Positions 1 through 4,687 of a stretch of 5,169 nucleotides of DNA are shown one piece after another. Under the pieces are notes generated by a model. That model searched no databases. It was not told where the DNA came from and saw nothing but the letters and a program-made list of their open reading frames with translations. Position numbers and translations under genes: made by a program. Origin of the DNA: an uncultured Bacteroidales bacterium (GTDB lineage: Bacteria > Bacteroidota > Bacteroidia > Bacteroidales > F082); contig CAMKAR010000171.1 in the NCBI GenBank assembly GCA_946410535.1, positions 1-5,169 on the forward strand. The letters run 5' to 3'. Every line of letters begins with the position of its first letter. Position 1 is the first letter of the stretch.

Positions 1-1840
1 TGATTTCCAATACCTTCTCGTTAGCCGCTTCAGCCATCTTGGTCAGTTCCGGCATCACCTCGTTATAAGCCTTCTTTAATCCCTCCAATGCGTGTTTTTT
101 GTACACTGCGCCACCCCCGCCTTCCCTAATGGATTTTTCAAGTTCTTGGTATTTCGCCCAAACCCTCTCCCGCGTTTCTTCCACGGAGATAAATTCGTTG
201 CCTATGTTGCGGAACATTTCGGAATACATCTTTGCCGTCCGCTCCTCTATGCTTCCTTCGGGGTCAATCAAGTCTCGGATGCCGTTGATGCCATCGGTGA
301 GAAACTTGAACACCTTGGCAAACCTCCCCGTGCTGTTTCTGAAACTCAAAACCAAGCCTTCCCATGCCGACTTCATCCCATCGATGGCACCTTCAACGGT
401 GTTGGCCCGCTGGTCGGCCATCGTCTGCAGCTCGCCGTCCACGTTCTCCAGTTCGCCCCGCAGCGTCATTGCGCTCTCCGCCCCGTCGAGGAAGGTGTTG
501 AAGGCCGCCACGCTGCGTTTGTCGGTCAGTTCGAGGGTCGTGTTCAGGTCTACGCCTTGGTCGCGCAGTTTCTTCATCGCGCCCATGATGTCCTCGAATG
601 AATGCACCGAGCCGCCCAACGCCTTGGCCAACTTGCCGTTGGTGTCGCTCAGGTTCAGCAAGATGTTCCTCGTCGCCGTGGCCGCGCTGCTTGCGTCGAA
701 GCCCGCGTTGGCCAACGTGCCAAGCAGGGCTATCGTGTCCTTCAGCGAGAGGCCGTAGGTCTTCGCCACAGGCGCAATCGTGCTGAACGAGTTCTGCAAG
801 TAGGTGAACGACAGGGCCGATTTGTTGCAAGCCACCGCCATCGTCCCCAATGCGTCCTCCGTCTGCTCGCTCCCGAGGTTGAACGAGCGCAGCGCCACGC
901 CCGCCAACGCTGCTGCACTGGCAAGGTCGGTGCCCACGCTGCCCGCGAAGTTCAGCACCGCCGGGCTCATGTCCGTGATCTCCTTTACCCCGAAGCCCAA
1001 CTTGGCCAGCTCGGTCTGCAAGCCCGTCACCTGCGAGGCCGAATAGCGCGTGCTGCTGCCCAAGGCGATGGCCGCCTTCTCCAGCTTCTCCATCTGGTCC
1101 GAGGTCGCGCCAAGGATGGATGCAAGGTTGGCGTTGGCCTGCTCGAAGTTGGAGATGGTTTTGTAGGCATCGGCGAAGCGGCGAGCCACGGCTATGGCCG
1201 TCCTAGCCGCCTGCCCGATGAACAGGAATGCGCTCGAAACGCCATTCAGCCGCTGTAGCCAACCTTTTTGTTTTGTCACCACGCCGCTTTGGACTGCTTC
1301 AAGCCGCTTTATTTCGGCAGTCACCTGCTGGTATTTCTTGGCCAATTCGTCCCATTCCTTGGTATTGGGTTTCGTCTTGTCGAGTTCCGACCTTAACTGG
1401 CGTTGCATCCTTACAAGGTTTTCCATGCTTTTCCCCGAAAGGTTTTCCATGGCTTTGCCGAACTTCTTGACGCCCTCGTCGGCCCTCTTGATACTCTCTT
1501 GCATCGAATCCATCTCACGCTTCGCTTGGTCGGTCTTGTGCTTGCTGATTTCGAGTTTCTTGGCAAGGTCGTTGTATGCCTTTTCCTGTTCTTTGAGTTT
1601 CTTCGAAGTCTTGGCGTATTCCTCGGTGCCTTCCTTCATCCCCTCCAAGGCCTTGGCCGTTTCTTCCATCGCAGCCTTGGCCTTGTTTGTTTTCGCGGCC
1701 AGTTTCTCGTTCTTTGCCGCAAGGTCGTCGTATTTGTCGGTCAGCTTGGCAAGCTGCTTTGTCATCTCGGCAATGGCATCGTTGGCCTGCTCGTTGTTGA
1801 CGTAAATCTCGGAAACAAAAGTATCTCTATTGTCTGCCAT
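1..1840 (-). CDS. Phage tail tape measure protein, TP901 family (3' end beyond the window)
   Basis: The first 613 codons of a large gene are visible with no stop, so the protein is truncated by the left edge. Tape measure proteins set tail length, occupy the tail lumen and are ejected ahead of the DNA. Residues about 20-185 are charged, Lys/Glu/Ala-rich and coiled-coil-like (for example KAKAAMEETAKALEG near 53-67). A hydrophobic stretch follows near 200-220. Residues about 230-430 match the conserved TP901 core: an FEQANANLASILGATSDQME-type start, then GSSTRYSASQVTGLQTELAK, then a Gly/Ala/Ser-rich helical segment through FDASSAATATRNILLNLSDT. The start ATG at 1838-1840 gives MADNRDTFVSEIYVNNEQA, a natural N-terminus; the next in-frame Met is residue 26. 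No Shine-Dalgarno site precedes it. Instead a 17-bp hairpin ends one base before the ATG, so expression probably depends on readthrough or refolding. The family call is firm; the exact start is likely but not certain. Confidence 0.93.
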   Translation of the reverse strand, partial: MADNRDTFVSEIYVNNEQANDAIAEMTKQLAKLTDKYDDLAAKNEKLAAKTNKAKAAMEETAKALEGMKEGTEEYAKTSKKLKEQEKAYNDLAKKLEISKHKTDQAKREMDSMQESIKRADEGVKKFGKAMENLSGKSMENLVRMQRQLRSELDKTKPNTKEWDELAKKYQQVTAEIKRLEAVQSGVVTKQKGWLQRLNGVSSAFLFIGQAARTAIAVARRFADAYKTISNFEQANANLASILGATSDQMEKLEKAAIALGSSTRYSASQVTGLQTELAKLGFGVKEITDMSPAVLNFAGSVGTDLASAAALAGVALRSFNLGSEQTEDALGTMAVACNKSALSFTYLQNSFSTIAPVAKTYGLSLKDTIALLGTLANAGFDASSAATATRNILLNLSDTNGKLAKALGGSVHSFEDIMGAMKKLRDQGVDLNTTLELTDKRSVAAFNTFLDGAESAMTLRGELENVDGELQTMADQRANTVEGAIDGMKSAWEGLVLSFRNSTGRFAKVFKFLTDGINGIRDLIDPEGSIEERTAKMYSEMFRNIGNEFISVEETRERVWAKYQELEKSIREGGGGAVYKKHALEGLKKAYNEVMPELTKMAEAANEKVLEI

Positions 1841-2162: not shown

Positions 2163-2192
2163 CAAATATACGACAATTTCCGTTCCTGTCAA
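2163..2192 (-). promoter_or_regulatory. Bacteroidota-type promoter for the membrane-protein gene
   Basis: The -7 box TATATTTG (2163-2170 on the minus strand) matches TAnnTTTG exactly. A TTG at 2190-2192 sits 19 bases upstream, as expected for the -33 element. The -7 box is 22 bases upstream of the chosen ATG, giving a very short leader. The -33 region is covered by the small palindrome CCTGTCAACAGG (2185-2196). Confidence 0.75.
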
Positions 2193-2213: not shown

Positions 2214-2345
2214 TCAATCTTCGTTCATGTCGAGAATCAATTGATTCACTTGCTCACGAATCGCGGCACCGTGTTCCTCATGGGTTTGAAGTTCTGCGAC
2301 TATCTCAACCAGCCGCGTCTGTATCTCCAATAGTGTCAGCTTCAT
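2214..2345 (-). CDS. 43-aa hypothetical protein, last gene of the small-gene operon
   Basis: This is a very short gene that is easy to overlook. Its product begins MKLTLLEIQTRLVEIVAELQ and ends ILDMNED. It is acidic and apparently all helical. The hydrophobic spacing (L3, L5/L6, I8, L12, I15/V16, L19, then I29, V33, L36/I37) suits an amphipathic helix or a short coiled coil, perhaps a dimerising or partner-binding peptide. It starts within the stop of the 204-aa gene (ATGA) and has a near-perfect ribosome site (AAAGGAGGTG, 2353-2362) whose spacing to the ATG is three bases longer than at the other junctions. I assign no function. The ribosome site and the coupling, identical in design to four other junctions, make it a real gene rather than a chance frame. 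Confidence 0.8.
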   Translation of the reverse strand: MKLTLLEIQTRLVEIVAELQTHEEHGAAIREQVNQLILDMNED

Positions 2346-2363
2346 GCGTTCACACCTCCTTTC
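2342..2363 (-). promoter_or_regulatory. Coupling junction 5: in-frame Shine-Dalgarno plus ATGA (204-aa to 43-aa gene)
   Basis: GAAAGGAGGTGTGAACGC then ATGA. The upstream gene reads the site as K-G-G-V-N-A-stop. It is the only junction with three extra bases between the ribosome site and the ATG. Confidence 0.8.
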
Positions 2364-2956
2364 ACTTTTCCCCGGATGTCTTTAAGCGGGTCTTCGAAAC
2401 AGTCGCACTCCTTCTCGAAGAAGCGGAACGGCACGACGGGAATGTCCATCATCGCCCTGGCCGCGTCGGGGTACGAAAGTTTGTAAATGGTGTAATGCTC
2501 ACGGGTGTCTTCTCTTCTTATCGTGAATCTGCAATACTCCGAATCGAACTTGATTGAACATACATCCGCGTTCTTTAGCGCACGGCGCACAAACCGGACT
2601 GCGTCTATCATTTGGCCCTTCTCGTTGACATAATGCCAATCCGTGACCTCTGCCCTGCTCAATTTGCCGTTAAGCCCGGCAAGGTTCTTTTTGTGGAAAT
2701 CTTCCTCCAACTTGGAAAGGTCGGCACGCAGGTCGCACAAGGTCTTGTGGTCGCCCATCTCGCCCGTAAGAAGGATTTTGTCGAGCTGCTCGATGTATTT
2801 GTGTATCGGGTTGAAGCAAAAAAGGCATTGAGCTGGTTCCCATTCTCCGGCGGCGTTTTTCCTATATTCAATATCCGACCACTTCATCAGCGTTTCGTAA
2901 TCGCATACGGGGAAACCCGATGCCGCCCTGCTAATAGGATAATTCTTCTTTTTCAT
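2342..2956 (-). CDS. 204-aa hypothetical protein with N-terminal domain shared with the 96-aa protein
   Basis: I do not recognise this family. Residues about 26-95 align with residues 20-87 of the 96-aa product (3563-3853). Shared positions include W-x-DIE, then YIxxLDxILxTG, then DxKxL, RxDL, and a final F-x-K...GL. I count 18 identities over the 42 ungapped residues 54-95. The remainder (about 100-190) is unique and mixed alpha/beta in character, with WHYVNEKGQMIDAVRFVRR, an IKFDSEYCRFTIRRED strand-like stretch and a C-terminal ECDC. Cys residues occur at 18, 44, 47, 74, 133, 142, 184 and 186; C44-x2-C47 and C184-x-C186 could bind metal, but this is weak. The start has an ideal ribosome site and overlaps the upstream stop by ATGA. 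The gene looks like a 96-aa-type module fused to an extra C-terminal domain. Confidence 0.85.
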   Translation of the reverse strand: MKKKNYPISRAASGFPVCDYETLMKWSDIEYRKNAAGEWEPAQCLFCFNPIHKYIEQLDKILLTGEMGDHKTLCDLRADLSKLEEDFHKKNLAGLNGKLSRAEVTDWHYVNEKGQMIDAVRFVRRALKNADVCSIKFDSEYCRFTIRREDTREHYTIYKLSYPDAARAMMDIPVVPFRFFEKECDCFEDPLKDIRGKVKGGVNA

Positions 2957-2971
2957 TTCTCACCTCCTTTC
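2953..2971 (-). promoter_or_regulatory. Coupling junction 4: in-frame Shine-Dalgarno plus ATGA (99-aa to 204-aa gene)
   Basis: GAAAGGAGGTGAGAA then ATGA. The upstream gene reads it as K-K-G-G-E-K-stop. Confidence 0.85.
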
Positions 2972-3252
2972 TTTGCCCTGCCTTGCGTGAGCACCTCGCC
3001 GTTGGCGATGAGTTCGGTCACTTCGTTGGCCAGCTTCTTCATGTCGCGCACGGCACTGACAATGGCGTTGTTGATGGTGCGCAGCTTCGCTGATTCTTCC
3101 TTGTCGGAGGTGTCGACCAAAAGGATGTTCGTCTCTGCCAAGCCTTGGCAAAGGTTGTCGATGATTTCGGTGATGATCCATTGCGACTTGTCGGCATCGT
3201 AGTCAGCAAACCAGTCGGTTAGCGTCTCGCAGCTGATATACATCTTACTCAT
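2953..3252 (-). CDS. 99-aa hypothetical helical protein
   Basis: No family is recognised. The product begins MSKMYISCETLTDWFADYDA and is predicted mostly helical, with a charged, coiled-coil-like middle (SDKEESAKLRTINNAIVSAV, then RDMKKLANEVTELIANGE). It ends KKGGEK, the last residues being encoded by the next gene's ribosome site. There is no signal peptide or membrane segment, so it is probably cytoplasmic. The frame is open to 3372, but the extension (MQRLRPPPGLRPAPPAHQHH...) is a low-complexity shadow of the 105-aa gene. The ATG at 3250-3252 has an ideal ribosome site and the ATGA overlap, so I use that start. A second Met three codons in is possible but lies too far from the ribosome site. 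Confidence 0.82.
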   Translation of the reverse strand: MSKMYISCETLTDWFADYDADKSQWIITEIIDNLCQGLAETNILLVDTSDKEESAKLRTINNAIVSAVRDMKKLANEVTELIANGEVLTQGRAKKGGEK

Positions 3253-3267
3253 TGCGCACCTCCTTTC
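3249..3267 (-). promoter_or_regulatory. Coupling junction 3: in-frame Shine-Dalgarno plus ATGA (105-aa to 99-aa gene)
   Basis: GAAAGGAGGTGCGCA then ATGA. The upstream gene reads it as K-K-G-G-A-Q-stop. It fixes the start of the 99-aa gene at 3252. Confidence 0.85.
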
Positions 3268-3566
3268 TTGAATTGCTTCCTGTAGTGCTTCGTGCTGAAG
3301 TCGATGGCGTTGATGATGCTGATGCGCAGGCGGCGCAGGGCGCAGTCCTGGTGGTGGCCGCAGCCGCTGCACTGGTCGAAATCAAGGAAGCAGCGGTCAA
3401 CATTAAGACTTGCGCCATTTTCGCCTTCCAGTTCGCTGACAAAGGTGTTGGCGAAGAAGCAGGCGTTGAACTTGGCGATGTCGCCCTGCGGATGGCGGTA
3501 TTGGTCGCGCTTCCAGCTTTGCTCGAAAGCCTTCCTTTTCTCCGAGTCGATGATGCGTGTCATCAT
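3249..3566 (-). CDS. 105-aa hypothetical protein with a Cys/His cluster
   Basis: No named family is recognised. The N-terminal half contains EKRKAFEQSWKRDQYRHPQG and KFNACFFANTFVSELEGENG. At residues 59-75 lies a cluster C59-x6-C66-x2-C69-G-H71-H72-x2-C75 (core CSGCGHHQDC). It could coordinate zinc, or an iron-sulfur cluster if all four Cys are used. A basic, helical C-terminus follows (ALRRLRISIINAIDFSTKHY) with the tail KKGGAQ. Two ATGs stand in tandem at 3561-3566. I chose the first because its spacing from GGAGGT equals that of the neighbouring junctions. The overlap with the upstream gene is ATGA. Nucleic-acid or metal binding is possible but unproven. Confidence 0.83.
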   Translation of the reverse strand: MMTRIIDSEKRKAFEQSWKRDQYRHPQGDIAKFNACFFANTFVSELEGENGASLNVDRCFLDFDQCSGCGHHQDCALRRLRISIINAIDFSTKHYRKQFKKGGAQ

Positions 3567-3582
3567 CTCTCACCTCCTTTCC
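3563..3582 (-). promoter_or_regulatory. Coupling junction 2: in-frame Shine-Dalgarno plus ATGA (96-aa to 105-aa gene)
   Basis: GGAAAGGAGGTGAGAG then ATGA. The upstream gene reads it as G-K-G-G-E-R-stop. The next codon is again ATG, giving tandem starts. Confidence 0.85.
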
Positions 3583-3853
3583 CGTCCTCATATAATCCTT
3601 CCATCTTAAGCTTCACAAACTCTTTTCGTGTGATGTCGAGGTCATTACGCATAGTACGCAACACTTTGAAATCCGAAACCTTGCCAGTAATCAAAATATG
3701 GTCAAGTTCAGCGATGTAGTCGCGTAAAATGTCAAAACCGTCCGGTCTTACGACAAATGCTTCATTGATGTCTTTCTTCATTTCAATGTCGTGCCAGGCA
3801 ACCAAGGCACTGAAGTCGGCTAAGGGGCAGTCAAGCGCTTTGTGGCTTCTCAT
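3563..3853 (-). CDS. 96-aa hypothetical protein, paralogue of the N-terminal half of the 204-aa protein
   Basis: The function is unknown. Residues 20-24 (WHDIE) and 46-87 (starting YIAELDHILITGKVSDFKVL, ending in the EGL of MEGLYEDGKG) align with residues 26-30 and 54-95 of the 204-aa product. There are 18 identities over 42 ungapped positions. The aligned part is predicted as two or three helices around a conserved ILxTG turn. There is no signal, membrane helix or catalytic motif. The tail GKGGER is partly the ribosome site of the next gene. The ATG at 3851-3853 overlaps the upstream stop as ATGA and follows AAGGAGGTGAGAG. Recognisable similarity two genes apart points to duplication within the operon, followed by gain (or loss) of a C-terminal domain. 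Confidence 0.85.
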   Translation of the reverse strand: MRSHKALDCPLADFSALVAWHDIEMKKDINEAFVVRPDGFDILRDYIAELDHILITGKVSDFKVLRTMRNDLDITRKEFVKLKMEGLYEDGKGGER

Positions 3854-3868
3854 CTCTCACCTCCTTCC
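3850..3868 (-). promoter_or_regulatory. Coupling junction 1: in-frame Shine-Dalgarno plus ATGA (97-aa to 96-aa gene)
   Basis: GGAAGGAGGTGAGAG then ATGA. The upstream gene reads it as M-E-G-G-E-R-stop. This is the first of the five matching junctions. Confidence 0.85.
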
Positions 3869-4143
3869 ATAGTGCTTGCAGTGAGTGCAAGGTTGAAGGC
3901 ACCGCCCAAGCGTGGGCGCGGACGTTCGACGATGGTGGCAGGCTTGCGCCAGTTGTTCTCGGCGGCGGCGGCCATGGCGGCGGGCTGCACCTCGGTCTTG
4001 CGGATGCAGCACGGCCAGCCCATGCGGCGGGCGAAGTTGCGGTAGAACCGCTCCTCGTAGCGGTCCTCGATGGGGATAACCAGGTTGTTCCTCTTGTGGC
4101 AATCCCTGAAGATCACCAGTGTCTTTTGATTCTGTTTTTCCAT
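3850..4143 (-). CDS. 97-aa hypothetical basic protein
   Basis: I do not recognise this protein. It starts MEKQNQKTLVIFRDCHKRNN, then VIPIEDRYEERFYRNFARRM and GWPCCIRKTEVQ. Residues about 54-80 turn Ala/Pro/Arg-rich and low in complexity (PAAMAAAAENNWRKPATIVE, RPRPRLGG). The tail is TMEGGER. Unlike the next genes, it has no Shine-Dalgarno site: its ATG at 4141-4143 follows GTCAAAATCTACAAGAA, a copy of an element also found in the operon leader. An in-frame stop at 4162-4164 rules out a longer form. A 101-aa frame (3857-4162) covers the same DNA, but its product is a low-complexity QG/RR-rich shadow that breaks the ATGA pattern, so I reject it. The G+C-rich second half looks unlike its neighbours. 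Confidence 0.72.
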   Translation of the reverse strand: MEKQNQKTLVIFRDCHKRNNLVIPIEDRYEERFYRNFARRMGWPCCIRKTEVQPAAMAAAAENNWRKPATIVERPRPRLGGAFNLALTASTMEGGER

Positions 4144-4145
4144 TT

Positions 4146-4160
4146 CTTGTAGATTTTGAC
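4146..4160 (-). repeat. Copy 3 of the GTCAAA(A)TCTACAAG element, at the start of the 97-aa gene
   Basis: The minus strand reads GTCAAAATCTACAAG, ending two bases before the ATG at 4143. It matches the copy at 4639-4654 except for one missing A in the A-run. Confidence 0.6.
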
Positions 4161-4173
4161 ATTAAACAATTGA

Positions 4174-4455
4174 TTAGTTATTAGTTTTGAAAGGCGGGAA
4201 CAAGTGTCGGGTTTCAAACCCTTCATCCTCTTCCATGTGCGCCGTTTCAATGTTTTTTTCTTCCAGTTTCTTGTGATGTACGTATTCACGGAACCTCGCT
4301 TGCTTGTTGGCGGCAATCAATACAGCCTGCAACGCTTTCTTCAGTTCGCGTCTTGTATAGGGGAACTCGTCTGTCTTTCCGCCCAGATAGTTGATGTAGG
4401 CGGCGACAATCTTGCACTTCTCGCGGAATTTCTCCATCTTTTCTTCGTGTGTCAT
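4174..4455 (-). CDS. 93-aa hypothetical protein, first gene of the small-gene operon
   Basis: The function is unknown. The product is charged and mostly helical: MTHEEKMEKFREKCKIVAAY, INYLGGKTDEFPYTRRELKK, then ALQAVLIAANKQARFREYVH and an acidic, less ordered end (KLEEKNIETAHMEEDEGFET) closing in PPFKTNN. The middle helix with alternating hydrophobic and basic residues could bind a partner or nucleic acid, but no motif proves it. The ATG at 4453-4455 follows an A-rich stretch (CAAAACAAAGAATACT), the usual Bacteroidota style, with no Shine-Dalgarno core. It is the first gene after the promoter at 4659 and lies behind a structured leader of about 200 bases. The next gene begins 30 bases downstream without overlap, so this gene is not part of the junction array. 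Confidence 0.78.
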   Translation of the reverse strand: MTHEEKMEKFREKCKIVAAYINYLGGKTDEFPYTRRELKKALQAVLIAANKQARFREYVHHKKLEEKNIETAHMEEDEGFETRHLFPPFKTNN

Positions 4456-4486
4456 AGTATTCTTTGTTTTGATCGTTAAACAATAA

Positions 4487-4562
4487 CGGCTCCGATACGG
4501 GTGTCAAGGTTCTACAAGCGCGACCTTGCGGGCATTACTGCTACCGCGTCCGTATGGAGCCG
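4487..4562 (-). ncRNA. Predicted three-way-junction RNA in the operon leader
   Basis: On the minus strand CGGCTCCATACGG (4562-4550) pairs with CCGTATCGGAGCCG (4500-4487), forming 13 bp with one bulged C. Inside are two hairpins. One is GCGG/CCGC around a 12-base loop. The other is CAAGGT (4528-4523) with ACCTTG (4510-4505) around the 12-base loop CGCGCTTGTAGA. The outer stem is too long to be chance. The two inner stems are short, and the C between them can belong to only one. It could be a cis-regulatory leader, a processed small RNA or a DNA recognition site. No known riboswitch class is recognised. Confidence 0.5.
4503..4520 (+). repeat. Copy 2 of the GTCAAnnnTCTACAAGCG element, inverted
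   Basis: The plus strand reads GTCAAGGTTCTACAAGCG. It matches the minus-strand copy at 4637-4654 at 15 of 18 positions; the three differences are together in the middle. In a minus-strand transcript the two copies can pair, 10 bp plus 5 bp around a 3x3 internal loop. Confidence 0.65.
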
Positions 4563-4601
4563 AATTTTGACTCTTTTGTATTATCAATAAGGTTCGGGCA
4601 C

Positions 4602-4676
4602 AAAAAAAGCCGACTTTGCAGGTCAGCGGTCAGTGCCGCTTGTAGATTTTTGACGCTGCAAATATACGGCTTTTTT
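4602..4676. terminator. 75-base imperfect palindrome with A/T-run ends, terminator-like on both strands
   Basis: AAAAAA-GCCG (ending 4612) mirrors CGGC-TTTTTT (4667-4676). TTTGCAG (4615-4621) mirrors CTGCAAA (4656-4662), and GTCA (4622-4625) mirrors TGAC (4651-4654). A further hairpin AGCGG/CCGCT (4625-4629 with 4636-4640) sits in the centre. Stem breaks are small and asymmetric. A minus-strand transcript ends in GGC plus seven Us, and a plus-strand one in GGC plus six Us. The operon promoter lies in the right arm, so transcripts started there would lack most of one arm. Confidence 0.6.
4637..4654 (-). repeat. Copy 1 of the GTCAAAAATCTACAAGCG element, at the predicted transcript 5' end
   Basis: The minus strand reads GTCAAAAATCTACAAGCG, starting five bases after the -7 box. 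It would therefore form the 5' end of the operon transcript. Its TCTACAAGCG half is fully complementary to the loop of the leader hairpin at 4511-4520. Confidence 0.65.
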
Positions 4677-4687
4677 GGATTGTGCAA
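4659..4687 (-). promoter_or_regulatory. Bacteroidota-type promoter for the small-gene operon
   Basis: The -7 box TATATTTG (4659-4666, minus strand) matches TAnnTTTG exactly. TTG at 4685-4687 lies 18 bases upstream as a -33 element. Together with its flank the -7 box shares CGTATATTTG with the promoter at 2163-2170. The start should fall near 4653, giving a leader of about 200 bases before the 93-aa gene. Confidence 0.75.

Follow-up and report, generated by a model that had tools for sequence, protein, structure and literature searches.

The window, which is the whole 5,169-nt stretch analyzed here from an uncultured Bacteroidales contig, is a piece of phage DNA that we read on the minus strand, where all of the features given below lie. 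In that order, a gene with a membrane-like stretch (judged by eye) is followed by a promoter, a C4-type RNA and an extra gene, g0, and then by six small genes, g1 to g6, with five junctions between them, a second promoter, a 76-aa gene and a gene for a tape measure protein. The first gene of the array, g1 (3850..4143; family F1), encodes a protein ending in MEGGER. It is followed by g2 (3563..3853; F4), g3 (3249..3566; F7), which encodes a cysteine-rich protein of 105 aa, g4 (2953..3252; F2), which encodes another small protein, and g5 (2342..2956; F4), whose product has 204 aa. The last gene, g6 (2214..2345; F3), encodes 43 aa and ends without the coupler found at the ends of the others. The next promoter (TTGACAGG...TATATTTG, 2163..2192) has the same sequence as sites behind the arrays of two related loci, L001 and L004, and the tape measure protein gene (1..1840; PF10145, E = 2e-30; phrog_1533) forms the right flank of the array.

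The first-pass annotation had reported five genes joined by one repeated junction. The junctions are real, but the genes that they join number six. The consensus is AAAGGAGGTG-N4-ATGA, which is fitted with at most one mismatch by junction 1 (GAAGGAGGTGAGAG-ATGA, 3850..3867, reading GAAGGAGGTG at 3850), junction 2 (AAAGGAGGTGAGAG-ATGA, 3563..3580), junction 3 (AAAGGAGGTGCGCA-ATGA, 3249..3266) and junction 4 (AAAGGAGGTGAGAA-ATGA, 2953..2970). Junction 5 (AAAGGAGGTGTGAACGC-ATGA, 2342..2362) is 3 nt longer, with 9 nt rather than 6 from GGAGG to ATG, and keeps the register. Searching the window with up to two mismatches returned 4 matches, while 200 shuffles gave a mean of 0.06 and never reached 4. 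ATGA is a stop/start overlap at all five junctions: the upstream protein ends in E/K-G-G followed by two or three residues, with the TGA of its gene overlapping the ATG of the one behind. The ribosome site is read in the same upstream frame, the KGG register, at every one of the five, just as had been claimed. It had also been said that the upstream genes otherwise all differ, which is incorrect for g2 and g5: their alignment (89 columns, 36% identity, E = 1e-13) shows that the two are paralogous.

None of the window's array genes had a reliable family in Pfam, PHROGs, PADLOC or NCBIfam, the best PHROG match being that of g2 (E = 0.0086). A predicted structure for the g3 family (pLDDT 65) found no match in the PDB at E ≤ 0.001, and that for the g4 family was set aside at pLDDT 56.

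Relatives were found by several routes. Scanning viral contigs for g3 gave L001, with g3 at 90%; L004 was found via the window's downstream promoter; a profile of array proteins led to two contigs of Bacteroidales/Bacteroidia metagenome-assembled genomes, L005 and L006; and further loci came from 173 genomes of the host family. Among those genomes, profile A3 had matches in 5 (one of them weak), A4 in 2 and A5 in 7. Subfamilies A3 and A4 (probability 92) and A4 and A5 (80) look distantly related, and A3 and A5 (9) do not. In protein searches at E ≤ 0.01, 7 of 9 candidates were relatives of g3 and 77 of 224 were relatives of the paralogue profile, and GG fell inside the last six residues in 6 of the 7 and 69 of the 77, respectively. 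The junction pattern RAAGGAGGTGNGNNATGA was present in 43 of the 173 genomes, whereas the reversed pattern had one match. The window DNA matched a phage collection over 76 bases only, tblastn with two array proteins found no match, and the tape measure protein as a scan query returned no relative, yet a similar gene is visible by eye in L004. Locus L002 was dropped as it had no such junctions.

Single linkage at E = 1e-4 sorted the genes of 28 arrays into families; a further array, that of L112, which has a single junction and an MQHTQ start and whose leader was tested, brings the total to 29. This is a small set, in which several arrays share a contig, and it comes from fragmented host genomes. 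The window array reads F1-F4-F7-F2-F4-F3. Next to it stand F8-F1-F7-F5-F2-F3 in L001, F1-x-F5-F3 in L004, F8-F1-x-F5-F3 in L005 and F1-F4-F7-F13-F5-F3 in L006. Those from the other loci include F9-F1-F1-F7-F2-F2-F3 (L044), F9-F8-F2 (L045), F9-F2-F8-F6 (L046), F14-F2-F1 (L102) and F14-F1-F2-F6 (L104). Gene order is partly conserved: certain families come early, and a small gene of the MTKLEATTF/MKLTLLEIQT type is usually in last place. One contig, G105:C4, has four arrays together with terminase and integrase genes, and its integrase was of the phage type (phrog_1) among ten proteins scanned.

The register of the junctions had been treated as a one-in-three event at each. Because the ATGA overlap makes the register equal to the GGAGG-ATG spacing modulo 3, this is only a rough null, although the excess itself is real in the fetched loci: by simple ORF rules rather than gene annotation, 79 of 81 chained junctions (duplicates removed) were in register, compared with 14 of 30 single junctions in the same loci (Fisher p = 2e-9, with junctions that are not independent, as gene families recur). 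The 81 chained junctions had spacings of 6 (73 junctions), 9 (6) and 5 (2). A spacing of 7 occurred in nine single junctions, for example ahead of gene MNIPEEEMVSWVGDK, and in 4 of the 6 GGAGG-ATGA junctions that three Firmicutes phages contributed. Once a junction is established, a shift of one or two bases would make the upstream gene miss its stop codon. Only changes by whole codons are then open to it, which accounts for the spacings of 6 and 9. The lock on the register is partly a consequence of geometry, given an existing junction.

We aligned homologous loci on the junctions, as the first-pass annotation had proposed, and saw neither a fixed gene content and order nor freely diverging junctions. 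For an unbiased look at breakpoints, we used blastn among 15 arrays, which gave 38 pairs of blocks of at least 120 nt and at least 75% identity. Forty-six of the 55 block ends internal to both arrays lay within 25 nt of a junction, against 8.8 expected under uniform placement. Most of the right ends fell at +4 to +10 and most of the left ends at −13 to −18, which means that the shared block spans the Shine-Dalgarno (SD) sequence through the next ATGA, and blocks of homology mostly include the coupler at both ends. Nine of the 55 ends fall inside genes, six of them involving the fused first gene of L004. At base level, 20 of 22 chosen pairs had a shared side with an identity of 0.67 to 1.00 and another side at 0.20 to 0.41; the other two were left uncounted because a spacing difference of 9 versus 6 had misaligned them.

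Individual events fit the same picture. L001 has one extra gene between two couplers relative to L004, and L046 has one between F9 and F8 relative to L045. The F7 position of L001 is taken by another gene in L005. The window and L006 share the same g2 protein, with identity extending through the ATGA of junction 2 and then dropping to 0.39; the gene that follows in L006 is a distant relative of F7 (31%). Near-identical genes have different neighbors in different phages, and, compared at the level of family order, L102/L104 and L042 differ in arrangement. Comparison of the loci shows that whole genes have been gained, lost and replaced at standard couplers in Bacteroidales phages, with a single register and with exchange breakpoints at the couplers, and supports the earlier suggestion of a modular cassette. 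A crossover within the coupler and a random crossover kept by selection would leave the same trace in such sequence comparisons.

SD sequences in these phages go with overlapped starts. Counted by the same ORF rules in three phage contigs without double counting, an SD preceded 30 of 47 ATGA-overlapped starts and 8 of 116 other starts (17/27, 8/12 and 5/8 versus 4/51, 2/45 and 2/20 for the individual contigs). When the window, L001 and L004 were pooled, the figures were 5 of 8 and 0 of 23. Six 20-kb stretches of host DNA, counted likewise by ORF rules, had an SD at 1 of 11 overlapped starts and 6 of 96 others. This association is as expected if the SD serves reinitiation. Strong SD sites are unexpected given the host phylum: in the accessible text of the papers concerned, Bacteroidia ribosomes sequester the 16S rRNA tail and leave the SD unrecognized (PMC9976891), and Bacteroidetes use the SD neither at first starts nor in reinitiation (PMC6728339). 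A pattern for the 16S tail matched 3 of 40 relatives. Two of them, one of the family (G051) and one of the order (G190), end in CACCTCCTTT, which complements AAAGGAGGTG exactly; the third (G178) ends in TACCTCCTTT.

The leader of the window array, which the first-pass annotation had not picked up, has a promoter of the Bacteroidota type, TTG-N20-TATATTTG (4659..4687). At its 5' end lies a copy of the antisense target (4636..4654), 12 nt of which match the target exactly, 8 nt past the promoter. Between this mimic and the C4-type RNA lies what looks by eye like a terminator hairpin with a T run (4602..4627), at the same position by eye in L001 and L004. The RNA itself (4484..4563) is of the c4-2 type (RF02944), although at 33.8 bits it falls short of the gathering score (41). 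It contains the antisense arms CTTGTAGA and TTGACA (4502..4518), 8 and 6 nt that are the exact complement of the target, TGTCAAAATCTACAAG (4146..4161), whose end is separated from the g1 ATG by 2 nt. The extra gene g0 (4174..4455) sits between the RNA and the target, and L045 has an ORF in the same position.

The same layout (promoter, target copy, antisense arm and target at the start of the first gene) was present in all 14 leaders tested from the 29 arrays, a nonrandom set picked by first-gene start or C4 core. The target copy starts 3 to 12 nt past the promoter, and the antisense arm lies 125 to 145 nt in. Of the other 15 arrays, 6 had a promoter-type site no more than 320 nt from the first gene, 2 had one farther away, and 7 had no such site in the 600 nt upstream. 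The Rfam c4-2 model scored over its cutoff ahead of the arrays of L001 (49.7 bits), L004 (47.8), L046 (43) and L112 (41.1) and below it in L006 (33.5); L044 and L045 had the c4-2 core motif without a score over the cutoff. Elsewhere in the order, 16 c4-2 loci (L024-L039) had no arrays in fetched stretches of up to 3.1 kb, so the distribution of c4-2 is wider than that of the array.

When arms were cut by rule around ACC, the own target came out on top in 7 of 9 rows; as for the two exceptions, L046 had mis-cut arms and L045 had its target taken ahead of the inserted gene. With a crude longest-match measure, own matches averaged 9.1 nt versus 6.2 nt. Their total was not reached in any of 20,000 permutations, although the own target was the row maximum, or tied for it, in only 8 of 14 rows. 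Target copies averaged 10.8 nt versus 5.6 nt off the diagonal, but three of them (L115, L006 and L042) had just 6 nt, near that off-diagonal mean. The arms are complementary to the downstream RBS region, and arm and target appear to have changed together from phage to phage.

Two further leader types, B and C, found no Rfam match at E ≤ 1 in L005 and L042 or in a gathering-level scan of L102, L104, L112 and L115. A type B model matched 13 of the 173 genomes, 4 of which had been used to build it and 2 of which were weak. In the type B helix, seven pairs each contain a single cell in which both partners have changed, and 95.6% of cells are paired versus 40 to 59% when slid (12 sequences, in an alignment fitted to the model). 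The type C model matched 3 of the 173 genomes, two of them model building. The four arrays of G105:C4 have leaders of types A, B, A and C and four different antisense arms. One type of first-gene start (M-x-NSRKTAGETA-like, by eye) occurs on different cassettes, which suggests that the leader is a fixed entry.

We think it likely that the window's array is modular and consists of small accessory genes of a phage that are translationally coupled and exchanged at their couplers, with many such arrays under an antisense lock. Each cassette would be one gene, running from its SD-ATG up to the next SD-ATGA, and the shared coupler of 18 to 21 nt places a strong SD in frame inside the end of each upstream ORF. 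A crossover between couplers would then keep the upstream gene open and provide the new downstream gene with an SD and a stop-overlapping start; since all share one register, a crossover within the coupler leaves the frame unbroken, as the first-pass annotation had envisaged. We infer coupling, repression and the agent of exchange as follows. A ribosome finishing one gene would reinitiate at the next by means of the SD, so that the array is translated as a unit; the leader RNA, where present (of the C4 type in the window), would pair with the first gene's start region, thereby shutting the whole coupled array; and exchange would be ordinary phage recombination at or near couplers, retained when coupling survives. 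As the antisense arms are directed at the gene that heads a coupled row, one RNA could close the row whatever its genes. The more specific proposal, that the exchange site is the ribosome coupler itself and that temperate Bacteroidales phages carry several interchangeable arrays, many under their own antisense RNA, using the SD for reinitiation in hosts that ignore it at first starts, we put forward tentatively, at close to but short of an even chance.

A substantial chance, clearly below even, goes to ordinary phage mosaicism, in which recombination is random, only joins at gene ends survive and the repeat is the best SD, reached repeatedly. Pairing with the 16S tail would select AAAGGAGGTG, and such junctions are also present in other operons on the array-bearing contigs. 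Convergence on the SD alone, however, permits a spacing of 7 or 8, as in the single junctions and the Firmicutes phages, whereas the chained junctions keep to 6, 9 and 5, and the coupler mostly lies inside the homology blocks at both ends. Alternatively, genes may have been duplicated in tandem and have diverged inside a single phage lineage, with the junction inherited from the duplicated genes and little exchange between phages, which would explain why g2 and g5 are paralogous and why A3 and A4, and A4 and A5, look distantly related. This is nevertheless unlikely, because the same coupler is found on families with no detected relation and because near-identical genes are flanked by different neighbors in different phages.

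Could the SD drive de novo initiation at each gene, with no coupling, on a ribosome altered by a phage bS21 or by loss of the host's? Bacteroidia ribosomes lacking bS21, which is thought to block SD pairing, do recognize an extended SD according to the accessible text of PMC9976891; no bS21 gene was found in two array-bearing genomes, G001 and G105; and in G067:C53, G049:C14 and G066:C26 the genome's only bS21 gene shares a contig with the array, 5.6 to 19 kb away. We nonetheless regard this as quite improbable. The gene is present in 148 of the 173 host-family genomes, so its absence from G001 and G105 may reflect incompleteness; the three same-contig copies score like the only copies of other genomes and are probably host genes; two virus records searched had no bS21; and the SD is rare at other starts of the same phages. 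Very unlikely, in our judgment, is integron-like, site-specific recombination of cassettes by a phage recombinase that targets the coupler. Insertion and reordering at an 18-nt sequence have a cassette-like look and the G105:C4 contig has an integrase gene, but the coupler is no inverted repeat and is accounted for by its SD and ATGA, the 4-nt gene overlaps allow no space for attC-like sites, and that integrase may be a plain prophage integrase.

If the modular reading is right, the arrays are a natural case of plug-in gene expression, in which a standard part would keep translation working through any swap, and one antisense RNA at the first gene would silence any gene set plugged in behind it. 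Ribosomes of a phylum said to ignore the SD would then be able to use it after termination, and the arrays make this testable. As the window's array genes lack a reliable family in the four libraries, we would guess that new proteins for host control or counter-defense might be found in such arrays.

Integron cassettes are rows of promoterless genes behind one leader that are gained, lost and reordered as units. The arrays share with them this behavior of gene rows behind a leader; here, however, the joining element is a ribosome signal, and there is no attC, for which the 4-nt gene overlaps leave no space. The C4 RNA of phages P1 and P7 has an a1b1/a2b2 layout. In that precedent (accessible text of PMC12197685), a single target gene has its start region blocked by an antisense RNA. 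Common to C4 and Rfam c4-2 on the one side and the present leaders on the other are a structured RNA, two arms against a downstream RBS region and a second copy of that region upstream; here the RNA heads a coupled gene array, the pairing varies from array to array, and types B and C are added. In Cluster K mycobacteriophages, many different genes are likewise preceded by a short conserved sequence that can in part pair with 16S rRNA, the start-associated sequence (PMC3203893). Theirs is the 13-bp GGGATAGGAGCCC rather than AAAGGAGGTG-N4/7-ATGA, and the accessible text of that paper mentions neither an ATGA register nor an exchange of genes at the repeat. We found no description of arrays like the present ones in the literature searched, which took in few subscription papers and in which these start-associated sequences came closest, and a word search of the accessible text of PMC8710568 turned up no coupling terms. 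With termination-reinitiation coupling at ATGA overlaps, as described in the accessible text of PMC6728339, the arrays share the ATGA overlap and an SD within the end of the upstream gene. Bacteroidetes appear in that survey as making no use of the SD, whereas in these phages the SD tracks overlapped starts, and does so in exchangeable arrays.

Type B leader RNA lies ahead of the arrays at the related loci L005, L102, L104, and L112 and also occurs at L128 to L141. Its helix covaries, its antisense arm is array specific, and it had no match in Rfam. Type B is a candidate for a new C4-like RNA family. Type C leader RNA is assigned to L042, L115, and L142 to L144, with three members only found. 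L144 is a new member, and the gene behind its leader RNA is absent from the arrays seen.

In the window, an extra gene (4174 to 4455) separates the C4-type RNA from the target, the site at the first gene's start with which the antisense arm would pair; L045 likewise has one additional gene in this position. By eye, a degenerate target was seen at the start region of the extra gene itself in both loci. It is as if the extra gene had escaped antisense control.

In each of three arrays in other operons (L110, L114, and L120), a promoter-type site precedes the first gene by exactly 319 nt. Four arrays (L112 to L115) sit on a single phage-like contig, G105:C4, where other operons, including methyltransferase genes and, presumably, a YopX-like gene, share the same junction register. 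P0007, a relative of g3 with 59% identity, is nearly identical to other g3 relatives over its last 17 to 18 residues, which suggests that exchange may also occur just inside the gene end.

In G067:C53, G049:C14, and G066:C26, the contig with an array also carries the genome's sole bS21 (rpsU) gene, 5.6 to 19 kb away from that array, perhaps reflecting a common integration neighborhood. Clusters of tRNA genes are present in L041 (13617 to 13956) and L112 (12869 to 13362). Inspection by eye of L001 (5876 to 6518) showed a near-identical repeat pair, one copy ending a 2,015-aa gene and the other just past it. An RT-3 RNA (RF03068, 71.7 bits) follows, and the combination looks like a diversity-generating retroelement adjoining the L001 array.
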